DNA of 64,000 bases from assembly GCF_021502675.1 (NCBI RefSeq), contig NZ_JAKFHA010000005.1, forward strand, positions 139,596-203,595, in the 5' to 3' direction. The stretch's first letter is position 1, and each line of letters begins with the position of its first letter. Made by a program: the position numbers and the translations under genes. Under the pieces are notes generated by a model. That model was given only the letters and a program-made list of their open reading frames with translations, did not search any database and was not told the origin of the DNA. Below are positions 34,018 to 50,540 of this stretch, one piece after another. This stretch comes from Yinghuangia soli. GTDB taxonomy: Bacteria; Actinomycetota; Actinomycetes; Streptomycetales; Streptomycetaceae.

Positions 34018-34044
34018 CGGACTCTCTCCTCCACGGGGACGAGC

Positions 34045-35524: not shown

Positions 35525-35737
35525 GGCGGCCCGCCGCCCGGCTCAAGTACCGACGGCCGTGCTGTGCCCTGTGCTGCCTTGCGCTGCCCGCAGAGCCTCC
35601 CCGGCCCGCCCACCCCACGGATCCCGCGACTCCCGTACCCCGTCCCACCTGCACCGACCTGCTCGGGCCTGCCCAGGCCTGCCCGGGTCCGCGGGGGAGC
35701 AGGGCGCGGAAGTCCACCCCAGCCTTGGAGCGGCACC

Positions 35738-36766
35738 GTGTTCGATCTTTCCTCCGCCGACCTGCTCGACGCCTTCACCGCCGAGCTGAAGCTGTGCAAG
35801 CTCGTCCCCGGCGAGCACGTCGTGGTGCTGGCCGAACCGGCCAGCCGCGGCGATTACGTCGCCGCCGCGTTCGGCGCCGCGAAGGCCTGCGGCGCGCACG
35901 TCATCGCCGCCACGGTCCCCGGCGGCAGCCCCGCGCCGATGCCCAGCACGCACACCGGGGCCGGCCCCGGCCTGGTGTCGGTGCTCAACGACCGGGCCGC
36001 CCAGGACCTGCTCAAGTCCGCCGACCTGGTCGTCGACCTCACCTCCGAGGGCTTCATCCACGCCCCCGTGCAGCAGGAGATCCTGCGCAGCGGGACCCGC
36101 ATCATCTTCGTCTGCGACGCCCCGGACGTGCTGATCCGCAACCTGCCCAAGGCCTCCGACAAGGAGGACGTGCTCAAGGGCGTCGACCTGCTCAAGTCGG
36201 CCTCGGCCATGCACGTGCGGTCCGCGGCCGGCACCGACCTGGAAGTGCAACTCGCCGGAGCCAAACCCGAGTTCCAGTGCGGCTTCGCGGACGACCCGGG
36301 CCGCTGGGACCACTGGCCCAGCACGATGGTGCTGTGCTGGCCGGAGATCAGCAACGGCCGTATCGTGCTCGCCCCCGGCGACATCCTGCTGCCCTTCAAG
36401 GAGTACGTCCGCGACCCGGTCACGCTGACCGTCGCGGACGGCCGCATCGAGGACATCGCGGGCGGCGCCGAGGCGCACCTGCTCACGACCTTCTTCGCGG
36501 ACGCCGCCGACCCGTGGGGGCGCAGCCTCTCGCACATGGGCTGGGGCCTCATGCGCACCGCCGACTGGTTCGCCACCGCGATGTACGGCAAGGGCGACCT
36601 GATGGGCATGGACGCACGCGCATTCGCCGGGAACTTCCTGTGGTCCACCGGACCGCACCCGGTGCTCGGCCGCGAGTCCTACGCGCACCTCGACATCGCC
36701 ATGCGCGGCTGCACCGTGACCGTGGACGGCGCCGACGTCGTCGTCGACGGCAAGCTCCCCGCCTGA
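35738..36766 (+). CDS. nicX: 2,5-dihydroxypyridine 5,6-dioxygenase (NicX)
   Basis: A 342-residue protein of the NicX/M29-like fold. It should open the ring of 2,5-dihydroxypyridine with O2 to N-formylmaleamate using mononuclear Fe(II). H266 (LSHMGWG), H317 and D319 (AHLDIAMRG) coincide within one residue with the His265/His318/Asp320 iron ligands I recall for Pseudomonas putida NicX. GTG 35738 has GGAG seven bases upstream; the frame is open further but lacks homology-like sequence. It is the first gene of the catabolic cluster. No signal peptide is present, so it is cytoplasmic. Confidence 0.9.
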   Translation: MFDLSSADLLDAFTAELKLCKLVPGEHVVVLAEPASRGDYVAAAFGAAKACGAHVIAATVPGGSPAPMPSTHTGAGPGLVSVLNDRAAQDLLKSADLVVDLTSEGFIHAPVQQEILRSGTRIIFVCDAPDVLIRNLPKASDKEDVLKGVDLLKSASAMHVRSAAGTDLEVQLAGAKPEFQCGFADDPGRWDHWPSTMVLCWPEISNGRIVLAPGDILLPFKEYVRDPVTLTVADGRIEDIAGGAEAHLLTTFFADAADPWGRSLSHMGWGLMRTADWFATAMYGKGDLMGMDARAFAGNFLWSTGPHPVLGRESYAHLDIAMRGCTVTVDGADVVVDGKLPA

Positions 36767-36791
36767 ACAACGCATAAGGAGACAAAGAACC

Positions 36792-38063
36792 GTGGCCTCC
36801 ACCCAGTCGTACGAAGTCACCGTCGTCGGCGGCGGACTCGGCGGGCTGACCGCCGCGCTGGCCCTGCGCCAACGCGGCCTGCGCGTGACCGTGCTCGAAC
36901 AGGCGGCCCAGCTGGGCGAGATCGGTGCGGGCATCCAGACCGCGCCGAACGCCAGCCGCATCCTGCTCGGCCTCGGACTGCGCGAGCAGATGGAGGCCAT
37001 CCGCACCGAGCCGCTCGACCAGGTCCGGCGGCGCTGGGCGGACGGCAGCATCATCGGCCTCACTCCGCTCGGCGACTTCTGCACGCGCACCTACAACGCG
37101 CCCTACTGGCACTACCACCGCGCCGACCTGCACCGCGTCATCATGGACGCCTGCACGGACCCGGACGGCGCCGGACCGGTCGTCGAACTGCGCACCGACA
37201 GCCGCGTGGTCGGCCTGGACCGCGGCAACCCGAAGCGGCCCGCGGCGCTCACCGCGGACGGCAAGCGCCACGAGGCCGACGTGCTGATCGGTGCGGACGG
37301 CATCCGCTCCGCGGTCCGCGACCTGATGGGCGCCGAGGACACCCTGCGGTTCTCCGGCGAGATGGCCTTCCGGGCGCTCATCCCCGGCGACTCGATCGCC
37401 GCCGACCCGGCCACCCGCTGGCTCGTGGACCGCTACCAGAGCACCATCTGGTACGGCCCGGACCGGCATCTCGTGCACTACATGATCCGCGGCGGCGAGT
37501 TCCTCAACGTGGTCGGCTGCGTGCCGTGCACCGACGAGGTCGCCGAGCAGTGGACCGTCCCGTCCACCGCGCAGGACCTCGTCGACGCCTTCGCCGGCTG
37601 GGACGACCGGGTGCCGGCCATGCTCTCCAAGGCCAAGGACGACGTCGCGTGCTTCGCGCTCTACCACCGGCGCCGCGACCCGGTCTGGATGGACGGCCGC
37701 ATCGCGCTGCTCGGCGACTCGTGCCACGCCATGCTGCCCTACCAGGCCCAGGGCGCCTCCCAGGCCATGGAGGACGCGGCCGTGCTGGCCGAGGAGTTGG
37801 GCCGGGTGACCGCGGACGGTGCGGAGACCGCGCTGCGCCGGTACGTCGACCGGCGTGCCAAGCACGCGGGCATGGTGCAGGAGGCCTCGGTGCGCAACAT
37901 GGCCCTCTACCACCTGCCCGACGGGCCCGAACAGCGCGACCGCGACGAGAAGTTGCGGCGCGGGTTCACCGGGGAGTCGGACCTGTCGTACGACTGGCTG
38001 TGGTCCGGCACCCCGCTCGACGACCCCGACCTCGGCGCTTTCGCCTACCAGTTCGCGCGGTGA
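36792..38063 (+). CDS. nicC: FAD-dependent monooxygenase, probable 6-hydroxynicotinate 3-monooxygenase (NicC-like)
   Basis: A 423-residue single-component flavin hydroxylase of the salicylate/3-hydroxybenzoate 6-hydroxylase class. The Rossmann motif is VVGGGLGGLTAAL (11-23), the conserved D-G motif is VLIGADGIRS, and the second FAD motif is ALLGDSCHAMLPYQAQG (305-321). H226 and Y230 keep the four-residue spacing of the NicC active-site His/Tyr pair. Expected reaction: decarboxylative hydroxylation of 6-hydroxynicotinate to 2,5-dihydroxypyridine, feeding NicX. Q49 stands in GAGIQTAPN where I recall His47 in NicC, so substrate should be tested. GTG 36792 follows AAGGAG. Confidence 0.82.
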   Translation: MASTQSYEVTVVGGGLGGLTAALALRQRGLRVTVLEQAAQLGEIGAGIQTAPNASRILLGLGLREQMEAIRTEPLDQVRRRWADGSIIGLTPLGDFCTRTYNAPYWHYHRADLHRVIMDACTDPDGAGPVVELRTDSRVVGLDRGNPKRPAALTADGKRHEADVLIGADGIRSAVRDLMGAEDTLRFSGEMAFRALIPGDSIAADPATRWLVDRYQSTIWYGPDRHLVHYMIRGGEFLNVVGCVPCTDEVAEQWTVPSTAQDLVDAFAGWDDRVPAMLSKAKDDVACFALYHRRRDPVWMDGRIALLGDSCHAMLPYQAQGASQAMEDAAVLAEELGRVTADGAETALRRYVDRRAKHAGMVQEASVRNMALYHLPDGPEQRDRDEKLRRGFTGESDLSYDWLWSGTPLDDPDLGAFAYQFAR

Positions 38064-38148
38064 TGCGGATGCTCCCGCATCGCCCGCTGAATCGAACCAG
38101 CAGTACCACCCCCGCACCCCGTCCGACCCGGAAAGGAGGAGGAGCCTC

Positions 38149-39024
38149 ATGAAGCCTGCCTCGTTCGCCTACCACCGCGCCCGCGACGTGGCCGGCGCCG
38201 CCCGGCTCCTCGCCGAACTCGCGGAACGCGGTGAGGACGCCAAGCTGCTGGCCGGCGGCCAGAGCCTGATCCCGATGATGAACTTCCGGCTGGCCCGCCC
38301 CGGCCATCTCGTGGACATCGGGGGCCTTGCCGAACTGGCCTACCTGCGCCCGGACGGCACCGGCGGCCTGCGCATCGGCGCGCTCACCACCCACCACACC
38401 GTCGAGACCGCCGCCGAGGCGGTCCTCGGCCGGGACTTCGCGGTGCTGCGCGACGCCATGCCGTGGATCGGCCACCTGCCGATCCGCACCCGCGGCACGG
38501 TCGGCGGCAGCCTCGCGCACGGCGACTCCACCGCCGAATGGTGCCTGCTCGCCCTCCTGCTCGACGCCGAGATCACCGCCGTCGGACCGCACGGCGAACG
38601 CACCATCCCCGCGGCCGAGTTCTTCCACGGCTTCTACACCACCGCCCTGGAAGCCGACGAGGTCCTCGCCGAGATCCGCTTCCCGCGTCCCGCGCCGCAT
38701 GCCGCATTGGCCGAATTCGCGGAGCGGCGCGGCGACTTCGCCATCGTCTCGGCGGCCGTCGACCTGGACGTCGACGATGCCGGAGCCGTCGTCGCGGGCC
38801 GCGTCGCGCTCGGTGGCGTCGCCCCCGCACCGCTGCGCATCCCGGAAGCCGAAGAGGTCCTGGCCACAGGCGGCCCCGACCGCGCCGCGCTGTTCGCCGC
38901 CTGCGCGGACCGCGCCGCCGAGGCCGCCGACCCGCCGTCCGACATGAACGGCAGCGCCGACTACCGGCGCACCCTCATCCGCACCCTGATCCGCCGCGCC
39001 TGCGAGGAGGCGATCTCCCGATGA
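38149..39024 (+). CDS. Molybdenum hydroxylase FAD subunit (CoxM type)
   Basis: A 291-residue medium subunit of a xanthine-oxidase-family hydroxylase. The FAD-binding motifs A-K-L-L-A-G-G-Q-S-L-I-P (about 30-41) and T-R-G-T-V-G-G-S-L-A-H-G-D (about 111-123) are intact. It passes electrons from the iron-sulfur subunit to an external acceptor. ATG 38149 is preceded by AAAGGAGGAGG. It is followed by the large and small subunits with 4-bp overlaps in the order M-L-S, as in actinobacterial CoxMSL- or NdhLMS-like enzymes. The cluster context suggests nicotinate as substrate. Confidence 0.9.
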   Translation: MKPASFAYHRARDVAGAARLLAELAERGEDAKLLAGGQSLIPMMNFRLARPGHLVDIGGLAELAYLRPDGTGGLRIGALTTHHTVETAAEAVLGRDFAVLRDAMPWIGHLPIRTRGTVGGSLAHGDSTAEWCLLALLLDAEITAVGPHGERTIPAAEFFHGFYTTALEADEVLAEIRFPRPAPHAALAEFAERRGDFAIVSAAVDLDVDDAGAVVAGRVALGGVAPAPLRIPEAEEVLATGGPDRAALFAACADRAAEAADPPSDMNGSADYRRTLIRTLIRRACEEAISR

Positions 39025-41423
39025 GCCCCACCGCGCCGCACCCCGCGCCCGCGCCGCACGGCACCCACGGCAGCCCCGAAGGCGACCGCCTCGTCGGCCG
39101 GTCCGTACGCCGCCGCGAAGACCCCCGCCTCCTCACCGGGCGCGGCCGCTTCGTGGACGACATCGCGCTGCCCGGCATGCTGCACGCCCAGTTCGTGCGC
39201 AGCACGGTCGCACACGCCCGGATCGCCGAGCTGGACCTCGACGGGATCCGCGAAGTCCCGGGCGTGGTGGCCGTCTTCGATGCCGCCGACCTCGGCCTCG
39301 CGGACATCGCGGCCCGCCTGGACCGGCCGCTGCACGAGTTCGTGCCGACCGACATGCCCATCCTGGCCCGCGACCGGGTCCGCTACGTCGGCGAGCCGCT
39401 CGCCATCGTGGTGGCGCGCGACGCGTACGCGGCCGAAGACGGCATCGAGGCCGCCAAGGTCCGGTACGACATCCTCCCCCCGGTCGTCTCCGACACCGCC
39501 GCCCTGGCCCCCGGCGCGCCCCTCGTGCACGACGCGGCCGCCCGCAACACCCTCGTCGACGTCGCCATGTTCGCCACCGAGGGCATCGACGACGTCTTCG
39601 CCGCCGCACCCTGCGTGGTCGAGGTGCACACCACCACCGGCCGGCAGAACGCGCTGCCGCTGGAGACCCGCGGCGCGGTCGCCGCCTGGGACGCCAAGGA
39701 AGACCAACTCGTCCTGCACACCTGCACCCAGACCCCGCACCAGGTCCGCACCGTGGCGGCCGCCTGCCTCGGCCTGGACGAGCGCGCGGTCCGCGTGGTC
39801 GTCCCCGACATGGGCGGCGGCTTCGGCCAGAAGTGCGTGGTCGGCCGCGAGGAGATCGCCGCCGCGGCCGCCGCACTCCGGCTGGGCCGCCCGGTCAAGT
39901 GGATCGAGGACCGCAAGGACGCGCTCACCGCGTCCTTCCTGGCCCGCGAGCAGCGCTACGACGTGCGCGCCGCGTTCGCCGCCGACGGCACCATCCTCGC
40001 CCTCGACGCCGACGTCGTGTGCGACATGGGCGCCTACTCCTGCTACCCGTTCACCGCGGGCATCGAGCCGCTCATGGCCTCCGCCGAGATGCCGAGCGTC
40101 TACAAGGTCCCCGCGTACCGGGTCCGCGGCCGCGCGGTCACCACCAACAAGGCCCCGACCGCCCCGTACCGCGGTGTCAGCCGCCCGCAGTACGTCATGG
40201 TCGTCGAACGCCTCATGGAGCGCGCCGCCCGCGAACTCGGCATCGACGCGGTCGAGATCCGGCGCCGCAACGTCATCACCGAGTTCCCCTACACCGGCGT
40301 CAACAACATCACCTACGACCCCGGCTCCTACCTCGAATCCCTCGACCTGTGCGCCAAGGTCCTGCACGACGAAGGCTGGTACGCCGCCAAGGAGCAGGCC
40401 GCCGCCGAAGGCCGCCACCTCGGCATCGGCTACTCGTGCTTCAGCGAGCGCACCGGCTACGGATCCACCGCCTTCGCGGCCCGCAAGATGCAGGTCGTGC
40501 CCGGCTTCGACATCTCCGAAGTCCGGATGGACACCACCGGCGCGCTCACCGTCACCACCGGCACCCAGAACCACGGGCAGAGCCACGAGACCACGATGGC
40601 CCAGATCGTCGCCGACGAACTGCACGTCGACCTCGGCAAGGTCCGCATCCACCAGGGCGACACCGAACGCATCACCTACGGGTGGGGCACGTTCGCCAGC
40701 CGGTCCATCGTGGTCGGCGGCAGCGCCGTGCAGCGCGCCGCCGCGAAGCTCGGCGCCAAGCTGGTCGCCCTCGGCGCCCACCTCATGGACGCCAAGCCCG
40801 AGGACGCCGAACTGGGCGCGGGCTGCGTGCGGCTGCGTGCCGAGCCCGAGCGCACGGTCTCGTACGAGCGCATCGCCGAAGCCGCCTACCTGCGCTCCAA
40901 CCTGCTGCCCGACGGCATCGAACCCGGCCTGTCCGCGACCGCGAGCTTCGACGTCTTCGACGACGGCACCTTCTCCAACGCCACGCACGGCGTCGTCGTC
41001 GAACTCCACGAAGGCACCGGCCGCGTCGAGATCCTGCGGTACGTCTGCGTCGAGGACTGCGGCGTCGCGGTCAACCCGCAAGTGGTCGAGGGCCAGTGCC
41101 GCGGCGGCATCGCGCAGGGCATCGCCGGCGCGCTGTTCGAGCAGATCACCTACGACGCCCAGGGCGAACCGTCCGCGACCAGCTTCATGGACTACAAGGT
41201 GCCGACCGCCTGGGAGATCCCGGACGTCGCCATCCACCACCTGGAAACCCCCTGCCTGTTCACCACGACCGGGGCCAAGGGCGCGGGCGAAGGCGGCACC
41301 ATCGGCGCCCCGGCCGCCGTCCTCAACGCGGTCAACGACGCCCTGGCCCCGACCGGCGTCGAACTCGACAGCACCCCCATCACCCCCGAGACGGTGCAGC
41401 GCGCCCTGGAGAGCCGCCCATGA
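39021..41423 (+). CDS. Molybdenum hydroxylase large subunit, probable nicotinate 6-hydroxylase
   Basis: An 800-residue molybdopterin-binding subunit of the CoxL/xanthine dehydrogenase family. Hallmarks are GRSVRRREDPRLLTGRG near the start and D-M-G-G-G-F-G-Q-K, a moco contact. The active-site segment P-Y-R-G-V-S-R-P-Q differs from the A-Y-R-C-S-F-R loop of true CO dehydrogenases. The C-terminal K-G-A-G-E-G-G holds the catalytic Glu. So it is not a CO dehydrogenase. Being next to NicC and NicX, it most likely hydroxylates nicotinate to 6-hydroxynicotinate with water oxygen. No moco-insertion gene (CoxD/F, XdhC) is adjacent. Confidence 0.9.
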   Translation: MSPTAPHPAPAPHGTHGSPEGDRLVGRSVRRREDPRLLTGRGRFVDDIALPGMLHAQFVRSTVAHARIAELDLDGIREVPGVVAVFDAADLGLADIAARLDRPLHEFVPTDMPILARDRVRYVGEPLAIVVARDAYAAEDGIEAAKVRYDILPPVVSDTAALAPGAPLVHDAAARNTLVDVAMFATEGIDDVFAAAPCVVEVHTTTGRQNALPLETRGAVAAWDAKEDQLVLHTCTQTPHQVRTVAAACLGLDERAVRVVVPDMGGGFGQKCVVGREEIAAAAAALRLGRPVKWIEDRKDALTASFLAREQRYDVRAAFAADGTILALDADVVCDMGAYSCYPFTAGIEPLMASAEMPSVYKVPAYRVRGRAVTTNKAPTAPYRGVSRPQYVMVVERLMERAARELGIDAVEIRRRNVITEFPYTGVNNITYDPGSYLESLDLCAKVLHDEGWYAAKEQAAAEGRHLGIGYSCFSERTGYGSTAFAARKMQVVPGFDISEVRMDTTGALTVTTGTQNHGQSHETTMAQIVADELHVDLGKVRIHQGDTERITYGWGTFASRSIVVGGSAVQRAAAKLGAKLVALGAHLMDAKPEDAELGAGCVRLRAEPERTVSYERIAEAAYLRSNLLPDGIEPGLSATASFDVFDDGTFSNATHGVVVELHEGTGRVEILRYVCVEDCGVAVNPQVVEGQCRGGIAQGIAGALFEQITYDAQGEPSATSFMDYKVPTAWEIPDVAIHHLETPCLFTTTGAKGAGEGGTIGAPAAVLNAVNDALAPTGVELDSTPITPETVQRALESRP

Positions 41424-41923
41424 CGGACACTTCCTCGCGAGAGAACCACCTGCTGATCACGCTGGACGTCAACGGCGAACAGCACGAGATCCTCGTCGAA
41501 CCGCGCCGCACCCTCGTCGACGTGCTCCGCCACGACCTCGGCCTGACCGGCACGCACGTCGGCTGCGAACACGGCATCTGCGGCGCCTGCACGGTGCTCG
41601 CCGACGGCAAGCCGGTCCGCGCCTGCCTGATGTTCGCCGCCCAGGCCGAGGGCACCGCACTGCGCACCGTCGAATCGCTCGGCGACGGCTGCGGCGGACT
41701 CGGGGACCTGCAGCAGTCCTTCACCGAGCACCACGCCCTGCAATGCGGCTTCTGCACCCCGGGGTTCCTGATGCTCGCGGAAGGGTTCCTGGCCGAATGC
41801 CCGGACCCCGAGCCCGACGAGATCCGCGAGGTCGTCGCCGCCAACCTGTGCCGGTGCACCGGCTACCAGCCCATTGCCGAGGCCATCGGCCACTGCGCCG
41901 CCCGGCGCCTGAAGGAGAAGTGA
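41420..41923 (+). CDS. Molybdenum hydroxylase iron-sulfur subunit (CoxS type)
   Basis: A 167-residue small subunit with two [2Fe-2S] clusters. The plant-ferredoxin-type site uses C49, C54, C57 and C69 (GCEHGICGACTVL...RACL). The second site is C-G-F-C-T-P-G-F plus C-R-C-T-G-Y near the C-terminus. It conducts electrons from the molybdenum centre to FAD in the medium subunit. Its ATG overlaps the large-subunit stop, and its stop shares one base with the CoxG-like start (TGATG). All cluster ligands are present. Confidence 0.93.
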   Translation: MTDTSSRENHLLITLDVNGEQHEILVEPRRTLVDVLRHDLGLTGTHVGCEHGICGACTVLADGKPVRACLMFAAQAEGTALRTVESLGDGCGGLGDLQQSFTEHHALQCGFCTPGFLMLAEGFLAECPDPEPDEIREVVAANLCRCTGYQPIAEAIGHCAARRLKEK

Positions 41924-42759
41924 TGCGGTTCACCAGCACAGTGCCGGTCGCGGCCGCGCCCGACGCGGTCTTCGCACTGATCAACGACGTCGAGCGGGTC
42001 GCCACGTGCATGCCCGGAGCGGTGCTCCAGGGGCGTGACGGGGAGGCCTGGCACGGCGGAGTGAAGGTCAAGGTCGGACCGGTGACCGCGGCGTACGCCG
42101 GGACGGTGCGCTTCCTGGAGGTCGACCCCGCGCAGCGCACGCTGCGTGTCCAGGCCAAGGGCACCGACACGCACGGCAGCGGCGACGCCGAGGCCGAGGT
42201 CACGCTCGAAGTCCGCGACGACCCCGCCGGGGCCCGCCTGGAGCTGGTCACCGACCTGGTCATCCGCGGCAAGATCGCGCAGTTCGGCAAGGGCGCCATC
42301 ACCGCCGTGTCGGACCGGATCCTCCGGCAGTTCGCCCGCAACCTGGGCGGCCTGCTGGAAGGGGGGGACCCCGCACCGGCGCTGCCGAACGCCACCACGG
42401 CGGCGTCGGCGCGGGGTGGGACGGGGGGAGGCACGGGGGCCGGGGACTCGGGGGTCTTGGGGGACGGGACGGGGGACGGCGGCCGGCACCTTGCGGCTGT
42501 GGGGACGGTACGTACAGGACCGGCCGCCGCCCATGCCGATGCGGGCGGACATCCCGTGTCGTCCTCCGGCACACCGGCGTTCCAGCCGGTCGCCGGACCC
42601 GAACTCGACGGGCTCGCGCTGCTCGGCGGCCCCGCGGTCGCCAAATACGCGCCGATCGTCGGTGCCTTCGCCTTCGGCCTGTTCGAAGGCTGGCTCCTCG
42701 GCCGCCTGGTGAGCGTCGAGCGGCAGCTGCGGCAGCTCCGGGCACAAGGAAAGGCGTGA
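41923..42759 (+). CDS. CoxG-like SRPBCC protein
   Basis: A 278-residue protein with an N-terminal CoxG/SRPBCC domain (1-150; signatures DVERVATCMPGA and G-K-I-A-Q-F-G-K-G-A-I). A very G-rich-coded Gly/Ala/Thr linker (about 150-215) and a hydrophobic C-terminal segment (K-Y-A-P-I-V-G-A-F-A-F-G-L-F-E-G-W) with a charged tail follow. In CO-dehydrogenase systems CoxG helps tether the enzyme to the membrane. The C-terminal segment here fits that role for the adjacent hydroxylase. Alternatively it binds the hydrophobic substrate. It directly follows the small subunit. Confidence 0.8.
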   Translation: MRFTSTVPVAAAPDAVFALINDVERVATCMPGAVLQGRDGEAWHGGVKVKVGPVTAAYAGTVRFLEVDPAQRTLRVQAKGTDTHGSGDAEAEVTLEVRDDPAGARLELVTDLVIRGKIAQFGKGAITAVSDRILRQFARNLGGLLEGGDPAPALPNATTAASARGGTGGGTGAGDSGVLGDGTGDGGRHLAAVGTVRTGPAAAHADAGGHPVSSSGTPAFQPVAGPELDGLALLGGPAVAKYAPIVGAFAFGLFEGWLLGRLVSVERQLRQLRAQGKA

Positions 42760-43547: not shown

Positions 43548-44440
43548 CCGCGCAGAATTCCGGCTTCGGGACTCCTGCGGCCCCGGTGGCCCCGGTGGCC
43601 CCGGAGCGGGTGCTGCCGCAGGCGGCACTCGCCGACCTGGCCGCGGTCCCGGCGACCAGCCGCTGGGTGCGCTCCGGCGCGCTGCGGCTGCACGTCCTGG
43701 ACTACGGCGGCGACGGCGTCCCGCTCCTGGTGCTGCCCGGCATCACGATGCCGGCCGTCGGCATGGACTTCGCGGTCCGCGAACTCGTCGGCCCCTACCG
43801 CCCGGTGGTGCTCGACCAGCGCGGCCGCGGGCTGTCCGATACGGGCGCCTCCTACACGCTGGAGGACTACGCCGAGGACGCCGAGGCGGTCGTGGCGGGG
43901 CTGGGCCTGGACCGGCCGGTCCTGGTCGGCCACTCGCTCGGCGCCCGCGTGGCGGCGGCCGCCGCGGTCCGCGGCAAGACCCCGCTGGGCGGCACGGTGC
44001 TGGTCGACCCGCCGCTCAGCGGGCCCGGCCGGGACCCGTACCCGACCACCGCGGCGGCGTTCCTGGGCCAGCTCGCCGAGGCGCAGCGCGGTACGGACGC
44101 CGACGAGGTGGCCCGGGCCTGGCCGCGGTGGCCGCGCCCGGAACAGGAGCTGCGGGCCCGCTGGCTGGCGAGCTGCGGCACGGAGGCGGTGGCCGCCACG
44201 CACCGCGGGTTCGAGGCGGAGGACTTCTTCCGCTGGTGGCCCGAGGTGCCGGCGCCTGCGGTGTTCGTGCGCGGCGCGGACAGCCCGGTGGTGACCGCGG
44301 CGGGTGCCGCGGAAGCCGCCGCGGCCAACCCCGGGGCGGTCTACGCCGAGGTGCCGGACGCCGGCCACATGGTGTTCTGGGACAACCCGCCCGCCGCTCT
44401 CGGCGCGCTGCGCGACGCGCTGCGCGACCTGACCCGCTGA
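43544..44440 (+). CDS. nicD: N-formylmaleamate deformylase (NicD), alpha/beta hydrolase
   Basis: A 298-residue alpha/beta hydrolase. The catalytic triad is S131 (VGHSLGAR), D155 (TVLVDPPL) and H275 (PDAGHMVFWD). Each is offset by exactly 30 from the S101/D125/H245 triad I recall for Pseudomonas NicD. It should release formate from N-formylmaleamate, giving maleamate for NicF. A strong GGGGAGGGG precedes ATG 43544, which overlaps the NicF stop by 4 bp. The first 30 residues are an extension rich in Ala/Pro/Val. Confidence 0.87.
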   Translation: MTAQNSGFGTPAAPVAPVAPERVLPQAALADLAAVPATSRWVRSGALRLHVLDYGGDGVPLLVLPGITMPAVGMDFAVRELVGPYRPVVLDQRGRGLSDTGASYTLEDYAEDAEAVVAGLGLDRPVLVGHSLGARVAAAAAVRGKTPLGGTVLVDPPLSGPGRDPYPTTAAAFLGQLAEAQRGTDADEVARAWPRWPRPEQELRARWLASCGTEAVAATHRGFEAEDFFRWWPEVPAPAVFVRGADSPVVTAAGAAEAAAANPGAVYAEVPDAGHMVFWDNPPAALGALRDALRDLTR

Positions 44441-44505
44441 CCTCGGGGAAGGGGCGTGGGCGAGGTGCACCGCGGAGCCGCGGAGCGGCGTGCTCAAATG
44501 GGCGC

Positions 44506-44985
44506 ATGGCTGATCAGACCGCGCCCGCACCGTCCGCTCCCGCGCCGCCCGCCGCCCTCGTCGCGGCCCCCGGCTACCAGGTCCGGCGCCTCTACCAGGC
44601 GTACCTCGCGGCCTGGGTCCGGTCGGTCGACCCGGTGCTCACCGGACCGCAGTTCGCGGTCCTCACCGCGGTGGACGCGGGCCCCGGACGGGACCAGCGG
44701 TCGCTGGCCTCGGCGGTCGCCCTGGACACCTCGACCATGGCGGACGTCGCGCGGCGCCTGGAGACGCGCGGACTGATCGTCCGCAAGACCGCGGCCGACG
44801 ACGGCCGCCGCAAGTTGCTCTACCTCACCGAGGAAGGTGAGCGGTCTCTGCACGAGGCCAACCTGCGCGCGCGGGCGCTCGACGAGCGGCTCCTGGAGCC
44901 GTTCGACGCCGAGCAGCGCGAGCAGTTGATGACGTCGCTGGCTGCCCTCGCAGGTCACTGGGAGGGCCTGACCGAGGCTTTGTAG
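44506..44985 (+). CDS. MarR-family regulator (NicR/BpsR-like position)
   Basis: A 159-residue winged-helix regulator of the MarR family. Recognition elements are GPQFAVLTAVDAGPGRDQRSLASAVALDTSTMADVARRLETRGL and the wing R-K-T-A-A-D-D-G-R-R-K-L-L-Y-L-T. It sits among the catabolic genes between nicD and nicE, as the NicR and BpsR repressors do near nic genes in proteobacteria, where 6-hydroxynicotinate is the inducer. ATG 44506 lacks a strong ribosome site. Repression of this cluster through the dyads upstream of nicX is an inference. Confidence 0.82.
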   Translation: MADQTAPAPSAPAPPAALVAAPGYQVRRLYQAYLAAWVRSVDPVLTGPQFAVLTAVDAGPGRDQRSLASAVALDTSTMADVARRLETRGLIVRKTAADDGRRKLLYLTEEGERSLHEANLRARALDERLLEPFDAEQREQLMTSLAALAGHWEGLTEAL

Positions 44986-45004
44986 CCGCCGCACTGGAGT
45001 ACGC

Positions 45005-45796
45005 GTGACGGACCACCCGCAGCACCCGAAGGACCACCACGTCGGACTGATCGTCCCCAGCTCGAACCTCACGATGGAGACCGAGCTGCCGCGCATGATG
45101 CGGGCCCGCGAAGCGCTGTTCCCCGATGAGCGCTTCGTGTTCCACAGCAGCCGCATGCGCATGAAGCACGTCACCCCGGAGGAACTGCGCGGCATGAACG
45201 CGCAGACCCGCCGGGCCGCCGCCGAACTCGCCGATGCGCGGCCGGACGCGGTCGCCACCGCGTGCCTGGTCGCGATCATGGCGCAGGGCCCCGGCTACCA
45301 CTGCACGGCCGAGGACGAGATCACCGGCGTGCTGCGCGAGGAAGGCGTCGCCGCCCCGGTGGTGTCCAGCGCGGGCGCGCTGATCACCGGCATCAAGGCG
45401 CTCGGTGCGCGGCGCGTCGCGATCGTCACGCCGTACATGAAGCCGCTGACCGCCCTGGTCGCGGAGTACCTGGAGGACGCCGGCACCGAGGTCGTGGACA
45501 CGCTCAGCCTCGAAGTGCCGGACAACATCGCGGTGGCCCGCCTCGACCCGCGCGACCTGCTCGGCCACGTGGGCAAGTTGGACCTCTCCCGGGCGGACGC
45601 CCTGGTGCTGTCGGCGTGCGTGCAGATGCCGTCGCTGCCGGTGCTGCCGGAGGTCCAGGAAGCCGTCGGCATGCCGGTGCTGTCCGCGGCGGCGGCCACC
45701 GCCTACTGCCTGCTCGCCGAACTCGGCCTGGAGACCGCCGTGCCCGGAGCCGGCGAACTGCTGACCGGCCGCTACCCGGTGCCTGCCGGGGCCTGA
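45005..45796 (+). CDS. nicE: Maleate isomerase (NicE)
   Basis: A 263-residue Asp/Glu-racemase-superfamily enzyme converting maleate to fumarate. The two catalytic cysteines are C87 (TACLVAIM) and C205 (LSACVQMPS). Their spacing of 118 equals that of C76/C194 recalled for Nocardia maleate cis-trans isomerase. It opens with the family start HVGLIVPSSNLTMETELP. GTG 45005 follows GGAG. It completes the route to the TCA cycle. A hairpin follows its stop directly. Confidence 0.9.
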   Translation: MTDHPQHPKDHHVGLIVPSSNLTMETELPRMMRAREALFPDERFVFHSSRMRMKHVTPEELRGMNAQTRRAAAELADARPDAVATACLVAIMAQGPGYHCTAEDEITGVLREEGVAAPVVSSAGALITGIKALGARRVAIVTPYMKPLTALVAEYLEDAGTEVVDTLSLEVPDNIAVARLDPRDLLGHVGKLDLSRADALVLSACVQMPSLPVLPEVQEAVGMPVLSAAAATAYCLLAELGLETAVPGAGELLTGRYPVPAGA

Positions 45797-45831
45797 CCCC
45801 GCGCCCGTGACCCCGCGTACAGGGCGCGGGG
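45797..45831 (+). terminator. Hairpin between nicE and the transporter genes
   Basis: CCCCGCGCCC (45797-45806) pairs with GGGCGCGGGG (45822-45831) over 10 bp with a 15-nt loop. It begins directly after the nicE stop. It would separate the catabolic genes from the importer genes, implying a promoter in 45832-45901. Confidence 0.55.
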
Positions 45832-45901
45832 CGATGCAGCACACCCTCGGTCAGGCGAAATGCCCGAAATACGGAGATTCTCGCAAGCATCGGAGTGACT
45901 C

Positions 45902-47167
45902 ATGCAATTTGACATGGCAAAGGTGAGGGCGGCCGCCGCGGCCGGCGCGGTCCTCCTGCTCGTCGCGGCCTGCGGCGGCAAGGACCCGTCCGCGAAGGGC
46001 GCCCCGGACGGGGACAGCAAGGCCACCGGCAGCAAGGGCAGCGTCACGGTCGGCCTGCTCAACCCGGCCACCGGCCCGTTCGCGGCACTCGGCACGGACG
46101 TCAACGCCGGTTTCGAGGCGTACCTCAAGAGCAAGGGCGGCGTGCTGTCCGGCTACGCCATCAAGGTCGCCAAGGCCGACGAGGGCACCGACGCCGCGCA
46201 AGGCACCACGAAGGCCCGGCAGTTGGTCGAGCAGGACAAGGCCCAGATAGTCATCGGCCTGGTCAACTCGGCGATCGCGTACGCGGTGGCGCCGTACATG
46301 GAGGACACCGCCAAGGTGCCGCTCCTCATCACTGTCGCCGGCGCGGACGGCCTGACCCGCAAGCAGAACGGCAACACCTTCCGGCTCTCCTACACGAGCT
46401 CGCAGGACTCGATGCCGCTCGGCCCGTACACCTGCAAGGACATGGGCAAGCAGAAGGCCGTCGTGCTCGGCCTGGACTACTCCTTCGGCTGGGAGGCCGC
46501 GGGCGGGTTCGCGCGCACCTACGAGGACGCCGGCTGCCAGGTCGTCCAGGAGATCTACGCCCCGCTCGGCACCCAGGACTGGGGCCCGTACGTCAACCAG
46601 GTCAAGAAGGACGCCGACGTCGTCTACGTCGTCGCCCCCGGCCAGGACGGCGTGCGGCTGCTCAAGGCGTACCGCGACTTCGGCGTGAAGCTCCCGATCG
46701 TCGCGCACGGTGCGACCGTCGACGAGACCATCCTGGCCACCGAGGGCTCCAGCGCCGACGGCGTCATCTCGTCGCTGCACTACACGCCGCAGATCGACTC
46801 GCCGCAGAACAAGGCCCTGCTCGACGCCGCCGACAAGGGCGGCAACCAGTACCTCGAGGACGGCTGGGCGGCCGGCATGACGCTGGAGGCCGCGCTCGCG
46901 ACGATCGACAGCGACCCGACCCCCGACAAGATCCGCGCCGCCCTCGCGGGCGTCAAGATCGAGGCGCCGCGCGGCCCGCTCTCCTTCGACGCCTACGGCC
47001 AGGCCGTCTACCCGGTCTACATCCGCAAGGTCGAGGAGAAGGACGGCAAGCGGGTCAACTCGATCCTCACCAGCGTCCCCAACGTCTCGCAGTTCGGCAC
47101 CTACGACCCGGCCACGTACCTCGGTTTCCCGGGCTACGAGAAGCTCAAGGGCTCGTGGTCCAAGTGA
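45902..47167 (+). CDS. ABC transporter substrate-binding lipoprotein (type I, LivJ/AmiC-like)
   Basis: A 421-residue periplasmic-binding-protein type I of the HAAT (branched-chain amino acid) family. The signal peptide ends in the lipobox LLVAAC, lipidated Cys at 24. The mature protein has V-G-L-L-N-P-A-T-G-P-F-A-A-L-G near its start, as in LivJ-like and aromatic-acid binding proteins. ATG 45902 is used; ATG at 45914 is possible. It is the first gene of an operon encoding a complete importer. The location makes nicotinate or a related pyridine the likely ligand, but family members also bind amino acids, urea and amides. Confidence 0.92.
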   Translation: MQFDMAKVRAAAAAGAVLLLVAACGGKDPSAKGAPDGDSKATGSKGSVTVGLLNPATGPFAALGTDVNAGFEAYLKSKGGVLSGYAIKVAKADEGTDAAQGTTKARQLVEQDKAQIVIGLVNSAIAYAVAPYMEDTAKVPLLITVAGADGLTRKQNGNTFRLSYTSSQDSMPLGPYTCKDMGKQKAVVLGLDYSFGWEAAGGFARTYEDAGCQVVQEIYAPLGTQDWGPYVNQVKKDADVVYVVAPGQDGVRLLKAYRDFGVKLPIVAHGATVDETILATEGSSADGVISSLHYTPQIDSPQNKALLDAADKGGNQYLEDGWAAGMTLEAALATIDSDPTPDKIRAALAGVKIEAPRGPLSFDAYGQAVYPVYIRKVEEKDGKRVNSILTSVPNVSQFGTYDPATYLGFPGYEKLKGSWSK

Positions 47168-47177
47168 GGGGCGCGGC

Positions 47178-48041
47178 GTGCTGACCTGGCTCACCCACTC
47201 GGTCAACGGACTGGCCTACGGATCCCTGCTGTTCCTGGTCGCCAGCGGTCTGACCATCACGTTCGGCCTCATGCGCACGGTCAACCTCGCGCATGGCGCC
47301 TTCTACCTCATCGGCGGATACCTCGCCTACGACCTGGCCACCGACGGCACCGACTACTGGCTGGCGCTGCTGGCCGGCGTGGTGGCCGCGGCGATCGGCG
47401 GGATGATCGTCGAACGGGCGTTCCTGCACCGCCTCGCGGGCCGCGAACTCCCGCAGATCGTCCTGACCCTGGGCGTCGCGTACATCATCGGCGACCAGAT
47501 CCTGGCCAACTACGGCGGCGACCCGGTCGCGCCGCCCACCCCGCCCGGCCTCGAAGGCCCGGTCACCATCGGCGACTGGATCTTCCCGAAGTTCCGGCTG
47601 GTCATGATCGGCGTCGCGATCGGCCTCGCGCTGGTCGTCGGCGCGCTGCTCAAGTACACCCCGACCGGCGCGAAGGTGCGGGCCGCGGTGGACGACGAGG
47701 AGATCGCCCGCGCGGTCGGCATCCGCGTCCCGCTGGTGTTCCTGCTCGTCTTCGGCTGCGGCACCGGGCTCGCCGCCTTCGCCGGGGTCTGGGGCGGCGC
47801 GTTCACCTCGCTCGCCCCGGAGAGCGGATTCGAGGTGCTGCTGCTCGCCCTCATCGTGGTCGTCGTCGGCGGCCTCGGCTCGATCGGCGGCGCCCTGACG
47901 GCCGCGTTCATCGTCGGCCTGGTGGACCAGTACGGCAAGGTCTGGTTCCCCGAATGGGCGCTGTTCACCCTGTACGCGTCGGTCGCCGCGCTCCTCGCGG
48001 TGCGCCCGAGCGGCCTGTTCGGCAAGGCGGTGTTCCGATGA
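47178..48041 (+). CDS. Branched-chain amino acid-type ABC permease (LivH-like)
   Basis: A 287-residue membrane permease with about eight helices. Conserved segments are N-G-L-A-Y-G-S-L-L-F-L-V-A-S-G-L-T-I-T-F-G near the start, N-L-A-H-G-A-F-Y, and the C-terminal G-G-L-G-S-I-G-G-A-L. These are the LivH signatures. GTG 47178 follows AGGGG and lies 10 bp after the binding-protein stop. It overlaps the LivM-like gene by 4 bp. It forms half of the transmembrane channel of the importer in the nic cluster. Confidence 0.92.
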   Translation: MLTWLTHSVNGLAYGSLLFLVASGLTITFGLMRTVNLAHGAFYLIGGYLAYDLATDGTDYWLALLAGVVAAAIGGMIVERAFLHRLAGRELPQIVLTLGVAYIIGDQILANYGGDPVAPPTPPGLEGPVTIGDWIFPKFRLVMIGVAIGLALVVGALLKYTPTGAKVRAAVDDEEIARAVGIRVPLVFLLVFGCGTGLAAFAGVWGGAFTSLAPESGFEVLLLALIVVVVGGLGSIGGALTAAFIVGLVDQYGKVWFPEWALFTLYASVAALLAVRPSGLFGKAVFR

Positions 48042-49063
48042 GGGGACTGTCCACCGGGCGCCTGACCGCCCTCGCCGCCGGCCTGGCGGCCGTCGCGGGG
48101 CTGGTCCTGCTGCCCTTCCTCACCGACTCCTTCTACACGTTCGTGGCCACCCGCATGCTGCTCCTCGGCCTGTTCGCCACGGCGTACAACGCGGTCTTCG
48201 GGTTCGGCGGGATGGCCTCGCTCGGGCACGCTGCGTTCTACGGCATCGGCGGCTACTCGGTCGGCATCGGCGTCACCCGCTGGGACTGGCCGCCGCTGGT
48301 GGTCCTGCCGGTCGCCATCGTGCTCGGCGCGGCGGCCGCCGCGGTGTTCGGGATCATGTGCCTGCGGGTGCGCGGCATCTACCTGCTGCTGCTCACCCTC
48401 GCGCTGGCCCAGGCCATCGCCGGCCTGGCGTTCTACCAGACCGAATGGACCGGCGGCGACAACGGCATCCCGAGCATCTCGCGCGACGGCCTGCCGTCCG
48501 CGGTCCGGGAAGGCGACGGGTTCTACTGGCTCAGCCTCGGCGTCGTCGCGGTCTGCGTCGCGCTGCTGTGGATGTACCAGCGGTCCCCGCTGGGCATGTC
48601 GGTGGTCGGCGTGCGGGAGAGCGAGGCGCGCATGAGCGCCACCGGCTACCGCACCGGGCGGCTGCGGATCATCGCGTTCACCGTCTCGGGCGCCTTCGCG
48701 GCGGTGGCCGGCGTCATGGAGGTCTACCTCCAGGGCTCGGTGTCCACCGCGAACATGCACTGGCAGATCAGCGCCGAGGTGCTGGTGTTCGCCATCCTGG
48801 GCGGCGCCCGGCACTTCCTCGGACCGTTCCTGGGCGCCGTCATGGTGACCGGGCTCGAGGTGTGGGTCAGCACCTACACCGACCGGTGGATGACCGTGCT
48901 CGGCATCGTCTACATCGCCACCGCGCTGTTCCTCGCGGACGGCGTGCTCGGCCGCGCGGGCTGGGCGGTCCGCCGGGCCAAGGACCTCCGGGCCGGCCCG
49001 GCGGCGGCGCCGGCCGCGGCACCCAAGGACCGCACCGAACTCCCGGCGGAGGCACCCGCATGA
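48038..49063 (+). CDS. Branched-chain amino acid-type ABC permease (LivM-like)
   Basis: A 341-residue permease of the LivM family. Typical segments are A-Y-N-A-V-F-G-F-G-G-M-A-S-L-G-H-A-A-F-Y-G-I-G-G-Y after the first helices and the docking-type R-E-S-E-A-R-M-S-A-T-G-Y. The last 35 residues are a cytoplasmic Ala/Lys-rich tail. It overlaps both neighbours by 4 bp and pairs with the LivH-like protein. Confidence 0.92.
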   Translation: MRGLSTGRLTALAAGLAAVAGLVLLPFLTDSFYTFVATRMLLLGLFATAYNAVFGFGGMASLGHAAFYGIGGYSVGIGVTRWDWPPLVVLPVAIVLGAAAAAVFGIMCLRVRGIYLLLLTLALAQAIAGLAFYQTEWTGGDNGIPSISRDGLPSAVREGDGFYWLSLGVVAVCVALLWMYQRSPLGMSVVGVRESEARMSATGYRTGRLRIIAFTVSGAFAAVAGVMEVYLQGSVSTANMHWQISAEVLVFAILGGARHFLGPFLGAVMVTGLEVWVSTYTDRWMTVLGIVYIATALFLADGVLGRAGWAVRRAKDLRAGPAAAPAAAPKDRTELPAEAPA

Positions 49064-49815
49064 CCGACTACGCCATCGCGGGCCGCAACCTGACCATGCA
49101 GTTCGGGACGTTCCGCGCCAACGACGACATCACCCTCGCGGTCCCCGCGGGGGAACGCCGGGCCCTGATCGGGCCGAACGGCGCGGGCAAGTCCACGCTG
49201 TTCAACCTGCTCGCCGGGCAACTGCGCCCGACCTCGGGCACGGTCACCCTGCTGGGCCGCGACGTGACCCGCGTCCCGGCCCACCGCAGGGCCCGGCTCG
49301 GACTCGCCCGCACCTTCCAACTCACGGACCTGCTGGACGAGTTGACGGTGCGCGAGAACGTCCAGCTCACCTTGGCGGCGCAGTCGTCCGCGCACCGGGT
49401 GTTCTGGCGGCCGCTCGGCTCGGTCGGCACGCTCGCCGCCGAGGCCGATGCCGTCCTCGCCCAGTGGGACCTGGGCGACTTCGGCGACCGGCTGGTGCGC
49501 GAACTCGCCTACGGGCAGCAGCGGATCCTGGAGATCGCCCTGGCGATGTCGCGGAACCCGCAGGTGCTGCTCCTGGACGAGCCCACCGCGGGCCTCTCGC
49601 CCGCGGACGCCCGCAAGCTCACCGGCCTGGTCGCGGCCCTGCCGCGCACCATCACCGTGGTCATGATCGAACACGACATGGAGGTCGCGTTCACGCTGTC
49701 CGACCAGGTCAGCGTGCTGCAGCAGGGCCGGGTCATCGCCGCCGGCACCCCGGACGAGGTGGCCACCGACAACCGCGTGCTCGAGGCGTACCTCGGGGAG
49801 GCAGCCGATGCTTGA
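49060..49815 (+). CDS. ABC transporter ATP-binding protein (LivG-like)
   Basis: A 251-residue ATPase with Walker A GPNGAGKST (about 39-47), the Q-loop L-A-R-T-F-Q-L-T-D-L and the signature-region L-A-Y-G-Q-Q-R. Walker B is V-L-L-L-D-E-P-T-A-G-L-S, with the H-loop I-E-H-D-M. LAYGQQR in place of LSGGQ is normal for LivG proteins. It powers import together with the LivF-like ATPase, whose start it overlaps by 8 bp. Confidence 0.93.
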   Translation: MTDYAIAGRNLTMQFGTFRANDDITLAVPAGERRALIGPNGAGKSTLFNLLAGQLRPTSGTVTLLGRDVTRVPAHRRARLGLARTFQLTDLLDELTVRENVQLTLAAQSSAHRVFWRPLGSVGTLAAEADAVLAQWDLGDFGDRLVRELAYGQQRILEIALAMSRNPQVLLLDEPTAGLSPADARKLTGLVAALPRTITVVMIEHDMEVAFTLSDQVSVLQQGRVIAAGTPDEVATDNRVLEAYLGEAADA

Positions 49816-50539
49816 ACTCCGTGACGTGCACACCTACTACGGCGCGAGCCACGTCCTGCAGGGCGTCTCGCTGACCGTCGGCGAGGGCGAAGTGCTCGGC
49901 ATCCTGGGCCGCAACGGCATGGGCAAGACGACGCTGGTGCACACCATCGCCGGCCTGCTCAGACCGCGGCGCGGGACGATCGAGTTCCGGGGCCGCCGGA
50001 TCGGCGGCGCCCCGGCCGAGCGCATCGCCCGCGCGGGCATGGCCCTGGTGCCGCAAGGGCACCGCATCTTCCCGTCGCTGACCGTGAAGGAGAACCTCAA
50101 GGTCGCGGTGCGCCGCGGCACCGCACCCGAGCCCTGGACCATCGACGACGTGGTGGACCGCTTCCCGGTCCTCGGCGAGCGCTTCGGCCTGTCCGCCGGG
50201 CTGCTCTCCGGCGGCCAGCAGCAGATGCTGGCCCTGGGCCGCGCCCTGGTCGGCAACGGCAGCCTCGTCCTGCTCGACGAGCCCACCGAGGGCCTCGACC
50301 CGCAGACCGTGGCCCGGGTCGGCGACGTGGTCGACGAACTCCGCGGCCGCGGCACGTCCGCGATCCTCGTCGAGCAGAAGGTCGACTTCGCGCTGCGCCG
50401 CGTCGACCGCGCGCTCGTCCTGGAACGCGGCCACGTCGTGCACACCACCGACAAGCCCCAGGAACTCCGCACCGACACCGCAGCGCTGCGCGAACTCCTG
50501 GCAGTCGGCGGCGCCCCATCTACCGCGCCGTCCGCCTGA
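49808..50539 (+). CDS. ABC transporter ATP-binding protein (LivF-like)
   Basis: A 243-residue ATPase with Walker A GRNGMGKTT (about 36-44), the LivF-specific V-P-Q-G-H-R-I-F-P-S-L-T-V-K-E-N-L, the signature L-S-G-G-Q-Q-Q-M and Walker B L-V-L-L-D-E-P-T-E-G-L. A GGGGAGG ribosome site inside the previous gene precedes ATG 49808. It is the last gene of the importer operon and is followed at once by a strong hairpin. Confidence 0.93.
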   Translation: MLELRDVHTYYGASHVLQGVSLTVGEGEVLGILGRNGMGKTTLVHTIAGLLRPRRGTIEFRGRRIGGAPAERIARAGMALVPQGHRIFPSLTVKENLKVAVRRGTAPEPWTIDDVVDRFPVLGERFGLSAGLLSGGQQQMLALGRALVGNGSLVLLDEPTEGLDPQTVARVGDVVDELRGRGTSAILVEQKVDFALRRVDRALVLERGHVVHTTDKPQELRTDTAALRELLAVGGAPSTAPSA

Positions 50540-50540
50540 C

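Follow-up and report, generated by a model that had tools for sequence, protein, structure and literature searches.

The excerpts of the literature used here describe 2,5-dihydroxypyridine as an intermediate common to the routes of nicotine and nicotinic acid degradation (PMC5343071) and as an intermediate of a 2-hydroxypyridine route (PMC7356986). According to these excerpts, the 2,5-dihydroxypyridine route of nicotinic acid had, as of 2017, been found in Gram-negative strains only, and the nicotine routes through the same intermediate were likewise placed in Gram-negative bacteria, a proposal that activity of the Gram-positive homologues would overturn (PMC5343071). The excerpts mention linked ndpHFG homologues and a possible nicotine route in Streptomyces rapamycinicus, which are lower-pathway genes of an actinomycete, but they give no actinomycete nicotinate operon (PMC5343071). 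A 2-hydroxypyridine pathway of Rhodococcus rhodochrous PY11 is cited in the excerpts of PMC9304392 and PMC7356986. Here we describe a locus in a 64,000-nucleotide stretch of the Yinghuangia soli genome (contig NZ_JAKFHA010000005.1; the whole stretch is referred to as the window), in which fifteen co-directional genes occupy positions 35738 to 50539 of the + strand. The operon very probably encodes the uptake and the complete aerobic breakdown of nicotinate to fumarate via the maleamate route, with both substrate and activity predicted from sequence. No published description of such an operon was found in the titles and abstract openings of the open-licence literature.

The gene names used here follow those of the nic cluster of Pseudomonas putida KT2440. 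The order is nicX, nicC, hydM, hydL, hydS, coxG, nicF, nicD, marR, and nicE, followed by the genes for a substrate-binding protein, two permeases, and two ATPases of an ABC importer, and then by an esterase-like gene that extends to position 51689. Neighboring genes are separated by -8 to +25 bp within blocks, and the larger gaps are 85 bp (nicC to hydM), 65 bp (nicD to marR), and 105 bp (nicE to the importer). The original prediction had placed the nic genes, the hydroxylase, a MarR regulator, and an importer in a single direction, and all of them were confirmed on the + strand, with their order and coordinates as listed here and with coding frames and family matches in agreement. The CoxG-like and esterase-like genes were not on its list. 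Third-position guanine-plus-cytosine (GC) content was high in the same frames as the called genes, and Pfam matches were found for all genes of the run except nicX, the product of which was covered at full length by PDB 7cn3. Chance or spurious open reading frames were ruled out by the agreement of coding frames, family matches, and conservation. Start codons were picked by hand. The GC profile, which was the sole check made that bears on horizontal transfer, was flat.

The enzymes of the lower pathway provided the strongest homology. NicX (35738 to 36766, 342 amino acids) aligned over its whole length with its top PDB match, 7cn3, which is labelled 2,5-dihydroxypyridine 5,6-dioxygenase (E 6.5e-71), and residues H266, H317, and D319 aligned onto identical residues of 7cn3. 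We take these His/His/Asp residues to be iron ligands. In the case of NicD (43544 to 44440, 298 amino acids), a predicted N-formylmaleamate deformylase of the alpha/beta hydrolase type, the top PDB match was 4l0c, which is labelled as a deformylase (E 1.3e-42). The Ser/Asp/His triad S131/D155/H275 was present, and D155 and H275 aligned to identical residues in 4l0c; the S131 position is Ala in the 4l0c chain, which we presume is perhaps an engineered variant, and Ser in the next chain, 3kxp. NicF (42756 to 43547, 263 amino acids), a predicted maleamate amidohydrolase with an isochorismatase fold, had as its top match 4l07 (E 1.9e-60; the 4l08 chain is nearly identical to it), which is labelled merely as an isochorismatase-family hydrolase and which we assume to be maleamate amidase; the next matches were the N-carbamoylsarcosine amidohydrolase 26st (E 5e-54) and 3ot4/3uao (E 6.4e-40). 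The top matches of NicE (45005 to 45796, 263 amino acids) were the maleate cis-trans isomerases 4fq7 (E 3.2e-78) and 2xec (E 4.8e-64), and C87 and C205 aligned to identical residues of 4fq7. Presumably, 4l07, 4l0c, and 4fq7 are Pseudomonas putida S16 proteins and 2xec is a Nocardia farcinica protein. By homology, the predicted assignments of NicX, NicD, NicF, and NicE are good, with NicF the least specific because its assignment is at the family level. The eight catalytic-type residues named in the original prediction were all found at the numbers it gave. Its claim that they match characterized proteins held for NicX, NicE, and NicD D155 and H275, and for S131 only with respect to 3kxp. Its further claim that such conservation supports function, and not just family, stands as a sequence-based argument for NicX, NicD, and NicE, but NicC departs from its characterized relatives at three positions, as described below.

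For the first step, the operon encodes together the three subunits of a molybdenum hydroxylase, namely, a flavin adenine dinucleotide (FAD) subunit (HydM, 38149 to 39024, 291 amino acids; PF00941, PF03450), a molybdopterin subunit and predicted nicotinate 6-hydroxylase (HydL, 39021 to 41423, 800 amino acids; PF01315/PF02738/PF20256), and a two-[2Fe-2S] subunit with the corresponding cysteine motifs (HydS, 41420 to 41923, 167 amino acids; PF00111, PF01799). A CoxG-like SRPBCC protein follows (41923 to 42759, 278 amino acids; PF06240, E 1.8e-15). The closest solved relative of HydL was quinoline 2-oxidoreductase 1t3q (residues 23 to 800 aligned, E 2.2e-169), an enzyme that hydroxylates an N-heteroaromatic ring adjacent to the nitrogen. 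The carbon monoxide dehydrogenases matched HydL at E 9.6e-140 at best, and no CSFR string was present in the HydL sequence. The CSFR loop is a motif of the large subunit of form I carbon monoxide dehydrogenase, and its absence, together with the higher score of quinoline oxidoreductase, ruled out a carbon monoxide dehydrogenase identity for the three genes. With the plasmid-borne NicB-type proteins of Pseudomonas sp. BYT-5 and Azospirillum lipoferum 4B, HydL produced piecewise matches of 23 to 31% identity. The cytochrome c domains of the NicAB-type nicotinate hydroxylase are not present here, and an FAD subunit is found instead. Thus, the molybdenum hydroxylase of the original prediction was confirmed as a three-subunit enzyme, but it is not a NicAB orthologue. 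If the first step is nicotinate 6-hydroxylation, it would be carried out by a different enzyme lineage, with an FAD subunit in place of cytochrome c. Four genes of the XdhC family are located elsewhere in the genome.

The second enzyme, NicC (36792 to 38063, 423 amino acids; PF01494), is a putative FAD-dependent decarboxylative monooxygenase and a predicted 6-hydroxynicotinate 3-monooxygenase. Its highest bit scores were with decarboxylative vanillate 1-hydroxylase (8x38; 257 bits, E 2.7e-75) and with 8gsm, labelled 4-hydroxybenzoate decarboxylase (249 bits); the Pseudomonas NicC chains 8uiq and 5eow scored 178 and 176 bits, respectively (5eow, E 1.4e-50). In 6-hydroxynicotinate the hydroxyl group is para to the carboxyl group, as it is in 4-hydroxybenzoate and vanillate, and this common geometry suggests that NicC would perform similar chemistry. 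An alignment showed that the His211/Tyr215 pair (P. putida NicC numbering) was retained in the window NicC. The Cys202 position of Pseudomonas NicC is Ser in the window protein. The His47 position is Gln in the window NicC and in all 13 other actinobacterial rows, and it is His in both plasmid NicCs; where the 'PHMAQG' motif has its His, Tyr occurs in 13 of the 14 actinobacterial rows, the window included, and Phe in the L088 row, a 37% match that is probably not the NicC of its own cluster. The solved Pseudomonas chain 8uiq likewise has Gln at the His47 position; we presume that it is probably an engineered variant. In a tree built from the window, 13 hand-picked actinobacterial rows, 2 proteobacterial rows, and all but one (8r2t) of the 5 solved chains, the three proteobacterial NicC rows were set apart from the remainder with 100/100 support; because the branches are long, the deeper placing is unsure. 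In Aspergillus nidulans, genetic evidence assigns to HxnX the conversion of 6-hydroxynicotinate to 2,5-dihydroxypyridine, and the residues listed in the excerpts of PMC9304392 show that HxnX shares with the window NicC both the Gln at the His47 position (Gln59) and the His/Tyr pair. Because HxnX has the same Gln and the same assigned step, this Gln is not evidence against NicC activity.

These assignments suggest the following pathway. The Liv/HAAT-type importer would take up nicotinate, and HydMLS would hydroxylate it at C6, beside the ring nitrogen, to produce 6-hydroxynicotinate, as suggested by gene context and by kinship to quinoline 2-oxidoreductase. NicC would then exchange the carboxyl group para to the hydroxyl group for a second hydroxyl group, with a geometry like that of vanillate 1-hydroxylation, and yield 2,5-dihydroxypyridine. 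Strong homology and the presence of the iron ligands indicate that NicX would open the ring, and NicD, NicF, and NicE, which also have strong homology, would convert N-formylmaleamate to maleamate, maleate, and finally fumarate. MarR probably acts as the repressor of the operon, occupying the nicX promoter, and would be released when a pathway intermediate builds up.

Compared to the Pseudomonas-type nic clusters on the plasmids of Pseudomonas sp. BYT-5 and Azospirillum lipoferum 4B, the window operon encodes the same set of reactions. Identities to the two plasmid copies were 40 to 42% for NicX, 54 to 55% for NicE, 43 to 47% for NicF, and 33 to 38% for NicD. A marR gene adjoins nicX in the plasmid clusters as well, with a product that is 36% identical to the window MarR in one cluster and that gave no match in the other. 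The upper half differs, however. The Pseudomonas plasmid uses a 2Fe-2S protein and a 1195-amino-acid molybdopterin-cytochrome c fusion for the first step, whereas the window has the FAD/molybdopterin/iron-sulfur enzyme and CoxG; the window NicC is only 34 to 35% identical to the plasmid NicCs and lies outside the proteobacterial clade; the plasmid clusters contain a major facilitator superfamily (MFS) transporter gene in place of the ABC importer; and the gene order is different. This comparison suggests that the lower half is homologous in the two systems and that other lineages supplied the enzymes of the first two steps, the importer, and perhaps also the regulator. Hence, the operon departs from the textbook pathway in the upper half and in transport, and probably also in its control. 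The hxn route of A. nidulans is described as quite different from the bacterial routes. Quinoline 2-oxidoreductase (1t3q) has the same subunit make-up as HydMLS, but here the predicted substrate is nicotinate and the operon includes the CoxG-like partner. The pyridine-type cluster on a plasmid of Rhodococcus pyridinivorans YF3 is also actinobacterial and shares NicX (41%), NicE (60%), and a NicF-like protein (48%) with the window; it differs in having ring dioxygenase genes, no match to NicC or NicD, and only a 34% match to HydL.

The original prediction had called for a survey of actinomycete genomes, and the survey showed that similar clusters are sporadic yet widespread. Proteins at least 78% identical to NicX were found in 11 of 297 genomes of the family, the Y. 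soli genome (9.7 Mb in 91 contigs) included, and two more genomes had just 26% matches. Among 396 genomes of the phylum, eight had a match at E 1e-30 or better, namely, Y. soli itself and seven genomes with proteins of a more distant type (35 to 42% identity). A second NicX-type protein, 39% identical, was present in one family genome (L020, from the genome of L015). For gene content, we used one genome per species and obtained 79 distinct loci from the best 80 of 81, a sample that is skewed to close relatives and is not a census. Genes were counted as present at hand-set identity thresholds of 40 to 60%, depending on the gene, irrespective of gene order. The nine core genes from nicX to marR occurred together in at least 40 of the 79 loci, and at least 32 of these 40 also had nicE; both counts are lower bounds because many loci extend only 10 kb from nicX or stop at a contig end. 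The loci with all nine genes came from Streptomyces (34), Janibacter (4), Yinghuangia (1), and Sphaerisporangium (1). Matches to nicC above the threshold were missing in 10 of the 79 loci. An Embleya replicon that is filed as a plasmid carried the whole set in the same order, the importer and esterase included, at 65 to 93% identity. The view of the original prediction that such an actinomycete arrangement is little documented fits the restriction to Gram-negative strains in the excerpts of PMC5343071, but this strain is not alone in having the arrangement.

In 12 of the 79 loci, the genes found were limited to nicX, nicC, coxG, and those of the hydroxylase. One of these loci (L034) is cut at a contig end, and the other eleven are from Rhodococcus or Rhodococcoides (nine), Nocardia (one), and Gordonia (one). 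The L056, L062, L078, and L080 loci retained nicX, nicC, the hydroxylase, and coxG (in L056, at 7307-10020 and 18062-19246, together with a transporter gene and xdhC). Searches of these four genomes produced no NicE match at E 0.001 in three of them and no NicD match at E 1e-15 in any of them, the latter search being weak as it had no positive control. Upstream of nicX, L056 has two frames of the carbon-nitrogen hydrolase family and a flavin-reductase-like gene. It is possible that the Rhodococcus, Nocardia, and Gordonia clusters use a different lower pathway.

Two Streptomyces loci differed at the other end of the pathway. L046 (positions 102-5679; Streptomyces hirsutus) and L043 (positions 8078-9998; Streptomyces sp. 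B-S-A6) have nicX, nicC, nicF, nicD, and marR, and L043 also has nicE, but the hydroxylase was not found in the stretches examined. In genome-wide searches with HydL, the L043 genome gave no match at E 1e-60, and the best match in the L046 genome was 40% identical. Both loci carry a divergent VanA-type Rieske oxygenase gene and a ferredoxin gene (L046 also a reductase gene) behind a second copy of the operator described below, and an isochorismatase-type gene, the product of which is 27 to 30% identical to NicF, is nearby. The Rieske system may demethylate an N-methylpyridone or a methoxypyridine to 6-hydroxynicotinate.

The regulatory gene of the operon, marR (44506 to 44985, 159 amino acids; PF12802/PF01047), encodes the predicted repressor. 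A predicted operator core, TAGTACGTGTTCGGATTA (35498 to 35515, + strand), with the dyad TAnTnCG-4-CGnAnTA, is located upstream of nicX. The core is enclosed by a perfect 11-bp inverted repeat with a 14-bp spacer (35489 to 35524), the arms of which are shorter or imperfect in most relatives. A -35-like hexamer, TTGCAC (35484 to 35489, + strand), of which the TTG is conserved at this place in relatives, is followed after 18 bp by a -10-like TCGGAT (35508 to 35513, + strand) within the operator core; presumably, TCGGAT fits a Streptomyces-like -10 element. A generic sigma-70 scan of positions 35380 to 35760 found no promoter, and the proposed -35/-10 pair rests on conservation. In the 9.7-Mb genome, TAGTACGTGTTCGGATTA occurs exactly once, and the one other match within 3 mismatches has 3. 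We then considered 81 sequences (the 79 loci, Embleya, and the window). In 54 of them, a single site with 4 or fewer mismatches preceded nicX by 127 to 379 bp and shared its strand, and 11 of these 54 had an additional divergent copy. When twenty shuffled patterns, which preserve base composition but not dinucleotides, were searched against the 80 sequences that remain when the window is set aside (1.52 Mb), the mean was 1.35 matches and the maximum was 7. The TCGGAT hexamer was at the -10 place in 53 of the 54 nicX sites and in all 11 divergent sites, and TTG, with three registers allowed, was at the -35 place in the same proportions (53/54 and 11/11); Embleya has TTT. Five copies were not before nicX: one is immediately before nicE in L040, one is behind marR near the end of L049, one is about 1.5 kb before hydM in L052, in which the hydroxylase block is separate from the rest, and two, in L071 and L095, are weaker sites before nicE that lack the TTG. 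The site before nicX was absent in 27 of the 81 sequences, which were from Streptomyces (two: L049, and L094 with a 58-59% NicX), Rhodococcus or Rhodococcoides (nine), Janibacter (six), Mycobacterium or Mycolicibacterium (four), Gordonia (two), and Nocardia, Modestobacter, Amycolatopsis, and Nonomuraea (one each). A riboswitch in the long leader before nicX was also considered and rejected, as a search of Rfam with positions 35300 to 50700 returned nothing at gathering scores.

The importer that follows nicE is a complete HAAT/Liv-type system. It consists of a substrate-binding protein (45902 to 47167, 421 amino acids; PF13458, E 1.9e-68), permease 1 (47178 to 48041; PF02653), permease 2 (48038 to 49063; PF02653), ATPase 1 (49060 to 49815; PF00005, PF12399), and ATPase 2 (49808 to 50539; PF00005). 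The best solved relatives of the substrate-binding protein were 4evs, 4f06, 4zpj, and 4evq, several of which bind aromatic acids. From its context, the importer is predicted to carry nicotinate. It was found 3' of nicE in the window, in Y. seranimata, and in Embleya, and it was not found after nicE in about 19 kb from each of seven other family genomes, except for lone 34 to 35% ATPase matches on the opposite strand in two of them. In 60 sequences with both nicC and hydM, the gap between these genes was 1.0 to 2.2 kb in 53, less than 200 bp in six (L035, L037, L047, L051, L073, and L123), and 4.6 kb in L052. The gap contained an MFS-type transporter gene in the two loci that were read (L025, with a Pfam match, and L056). 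Matches to the L025 transporter occurred beside nicX in three genomes (64 to 76%), and the transporter itself accounted for a fourth. In a whole-genome search, its best match in Y. soli was only 29% identical (E 4.6e-20). A search with a single short string found no transporter between the operator and hydM in L052. Our reading is that the MFS transporter was replaced by the ABC importer in the Yinghuangia/Embleya line. Four of the short-gap loci are outside this line, and the MFS gene is therefore not universal there either.

Several of the results weigh against nicotinate as the substrate. HydL and NicC are not, by sequence, orthologues of the Pseudomonas-type NicB and NicC; thus, the substrate of the first two steps is assigned from context, and the pathway could be entered by another 3-substituted pyridine. 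The best solved relatives of NicC act on benzenoid acids, and 8twg and 8twf, which are also labelled 6-hydroxynicotinate 3-monooxygenase, matched NicC at only E 9e-8 and 3e-7, respectively. Ten of the proteins were scanned against NCBIfam, and none of the rows listed reached a curated cut-off. The importer was beside nic genes in just three of the genomes found. Moreover, the Rhodococcus/Nocardia/Gordonia-type clusters lack nicF, nicD, and nicE in the stretch examined, so the upper module is not everywhere tied to this lower route. The operon might instead degrade another pyridine that enters at 2,5-dihydroxypyridine (a nicotine product, 3-hydroxypyridine, 2-hydroxypyridine, or picolinate), with nicotinate not the main substrate. 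Such a role would be consistent with the several routes that share this intermediate, with the match, although a poorer one, of HydL to the nicotine-route 6-hydroxypseudooxynicotine dehydrogenase 7dqx (E 7.3e-114), and with the L043 and L046 lower genes, which adjoin a Rieske oxygenase and not a hydroxylase. We consider it quite unlikely, however, when the individual substrates are examined. Neither 3-hydroxypyridine nor 2-hydroxypyridine requires a decarboxylating monooxygenase, and the Rhodococcus plasmid cluster with a 41% NicX has ring-dioxygenase genes and no NicC match. The solved nicotine enzyme HspB matched NicC at just E 4.6e-10. The picolinate route uses an amidohydrolase-type decarboxylase, which was not among the Pfam matches of the run. 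In addition, the closest relatives of NicC use para-hydroxy ring acids, and 6-hydroxynicotinate is one. The PDB labels of these relatives (vanillate and 4-hydroxybenzoate enzymes) and the resemblance of the substrate-binding protein to Liv-type proteins, several of which bind aromatic acids, could also mean that benzenoid acids are the substrates of NicC and the hydroxylase, in a mixed aromatic-acid island that is only partly linked to pyridines. This idea is highly improbable: no family of benzene-ring-opening enzymes was among the Pfam matches, NicX, NicD, NicF, and NicE are enzymes of the pyridine route, and the nine core genes occur together in at least 40 of the 79 loci. A complete nicotinate-to-fumarate gene set, as originally predicted, was the best explanation of the cluster, with the first two substrates resting on context.

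For regulation, the simplest reading is that the MarR protein of the operon probably covers the promoter upstream of nicX at the predicted operator. The results that weigh against this reading are that the best PDB match of MarR was PcaV (E 1.3e-22), that 6pcp and 6pco, which we take to be BpsR, scored weakly (32 to 33 bits), and that five loci have a marR match but no nicX site (L049 and four Janibacter loci, with 45 to 49% identity in Janibacter). The residues by which BpsR binds 6-hydroxynicotinate (Tyr15, His23, Arg26, and His32) are not conserved in P. putida NicR (excerpts of PMC6837509). It is conceivable, but rather unlikely, that another regulator binds the conserved site, or that the site is simply a strong conserved promoter, and that MarR acts elsewhere. 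The -35/-10-like hexamers in the site and the divergent Lrp/AsnC gene in the window, an alternative candidate, would fit this possibility, as would the five loci with marR and no site. However, the core is dyad symmetric and is conserved beyond the two hexamers (at 15 of 18 positions, 51 or more of the 53 sites are identical), copies occur before the separate hydroxylase block (L052), before nicE (L040), and behind marR (L049), and the only match to the Lrp/AsnC gene among the 79 listed loci was a single 29% hit, in L028.

More broadly, we tentatively propose that Actinobacteria may have assembled a nicotinate route of their own from a lower half shared with Proteobacteria and unrelated upper enzymes, with one MarR-controlled promoter and interchangeable front ends, and with transporters swapped in the same manner; on present evidence this proposal is possible rather than probable. 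In most of the surveyed clusters the front end is the quinoline-oxidoreductase-type hydroxylase; S. hirsutus and Streptomyces sp. B-S-A6 have in its place the Rieske demethylase-like system, with the extra isochorismatase-type amidase gene nearby. The Rieske front end could turn N-methyl-6-pyridone-3-carboxamide, a niacin excretion product, into 6-hydroxynicotinate and bypass the hydroxylase. The transporter is of the MFS type in most Streptomyces clusters and of the ABC type in Yinghuangia and Embleya. If the assignment of the operon to nicotinate is right, enzymes that hydroxylate nicotinate and 6-hydroxynicotinate were recruited on more than one occasion, and actinomycetes have in this conserved promoter/operator a candidate switch that responds to nicotinate. 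The PY11 pathway reportedly passes through 2,5-dihydroxypyridine; if it does, the intermediate itself is not confined to Gram-negative bacteria. The window operon and the named loci with all nine genes, at least 40 in number, offer concrete strains and genes with which the Gram-negative-only proposal in the excerpts of PMC5343071 can be tested.

Two neighboring regions flank the operon. Upstream of nicX, divergent genes on the - strand (29327 to 35398) encode a peptide-type transporter (SBP_bac_5/BPD_transp_1) and the double-domain Lrp/AsnC regulator. Downstream of the importer, the esterase-like gene (50619 to 51689, + strand; PF00756) is also beside the importer in Y. seranimata (72%) and Embleya (79%), and its predicted product could free nicotinate from esters outside the cell.

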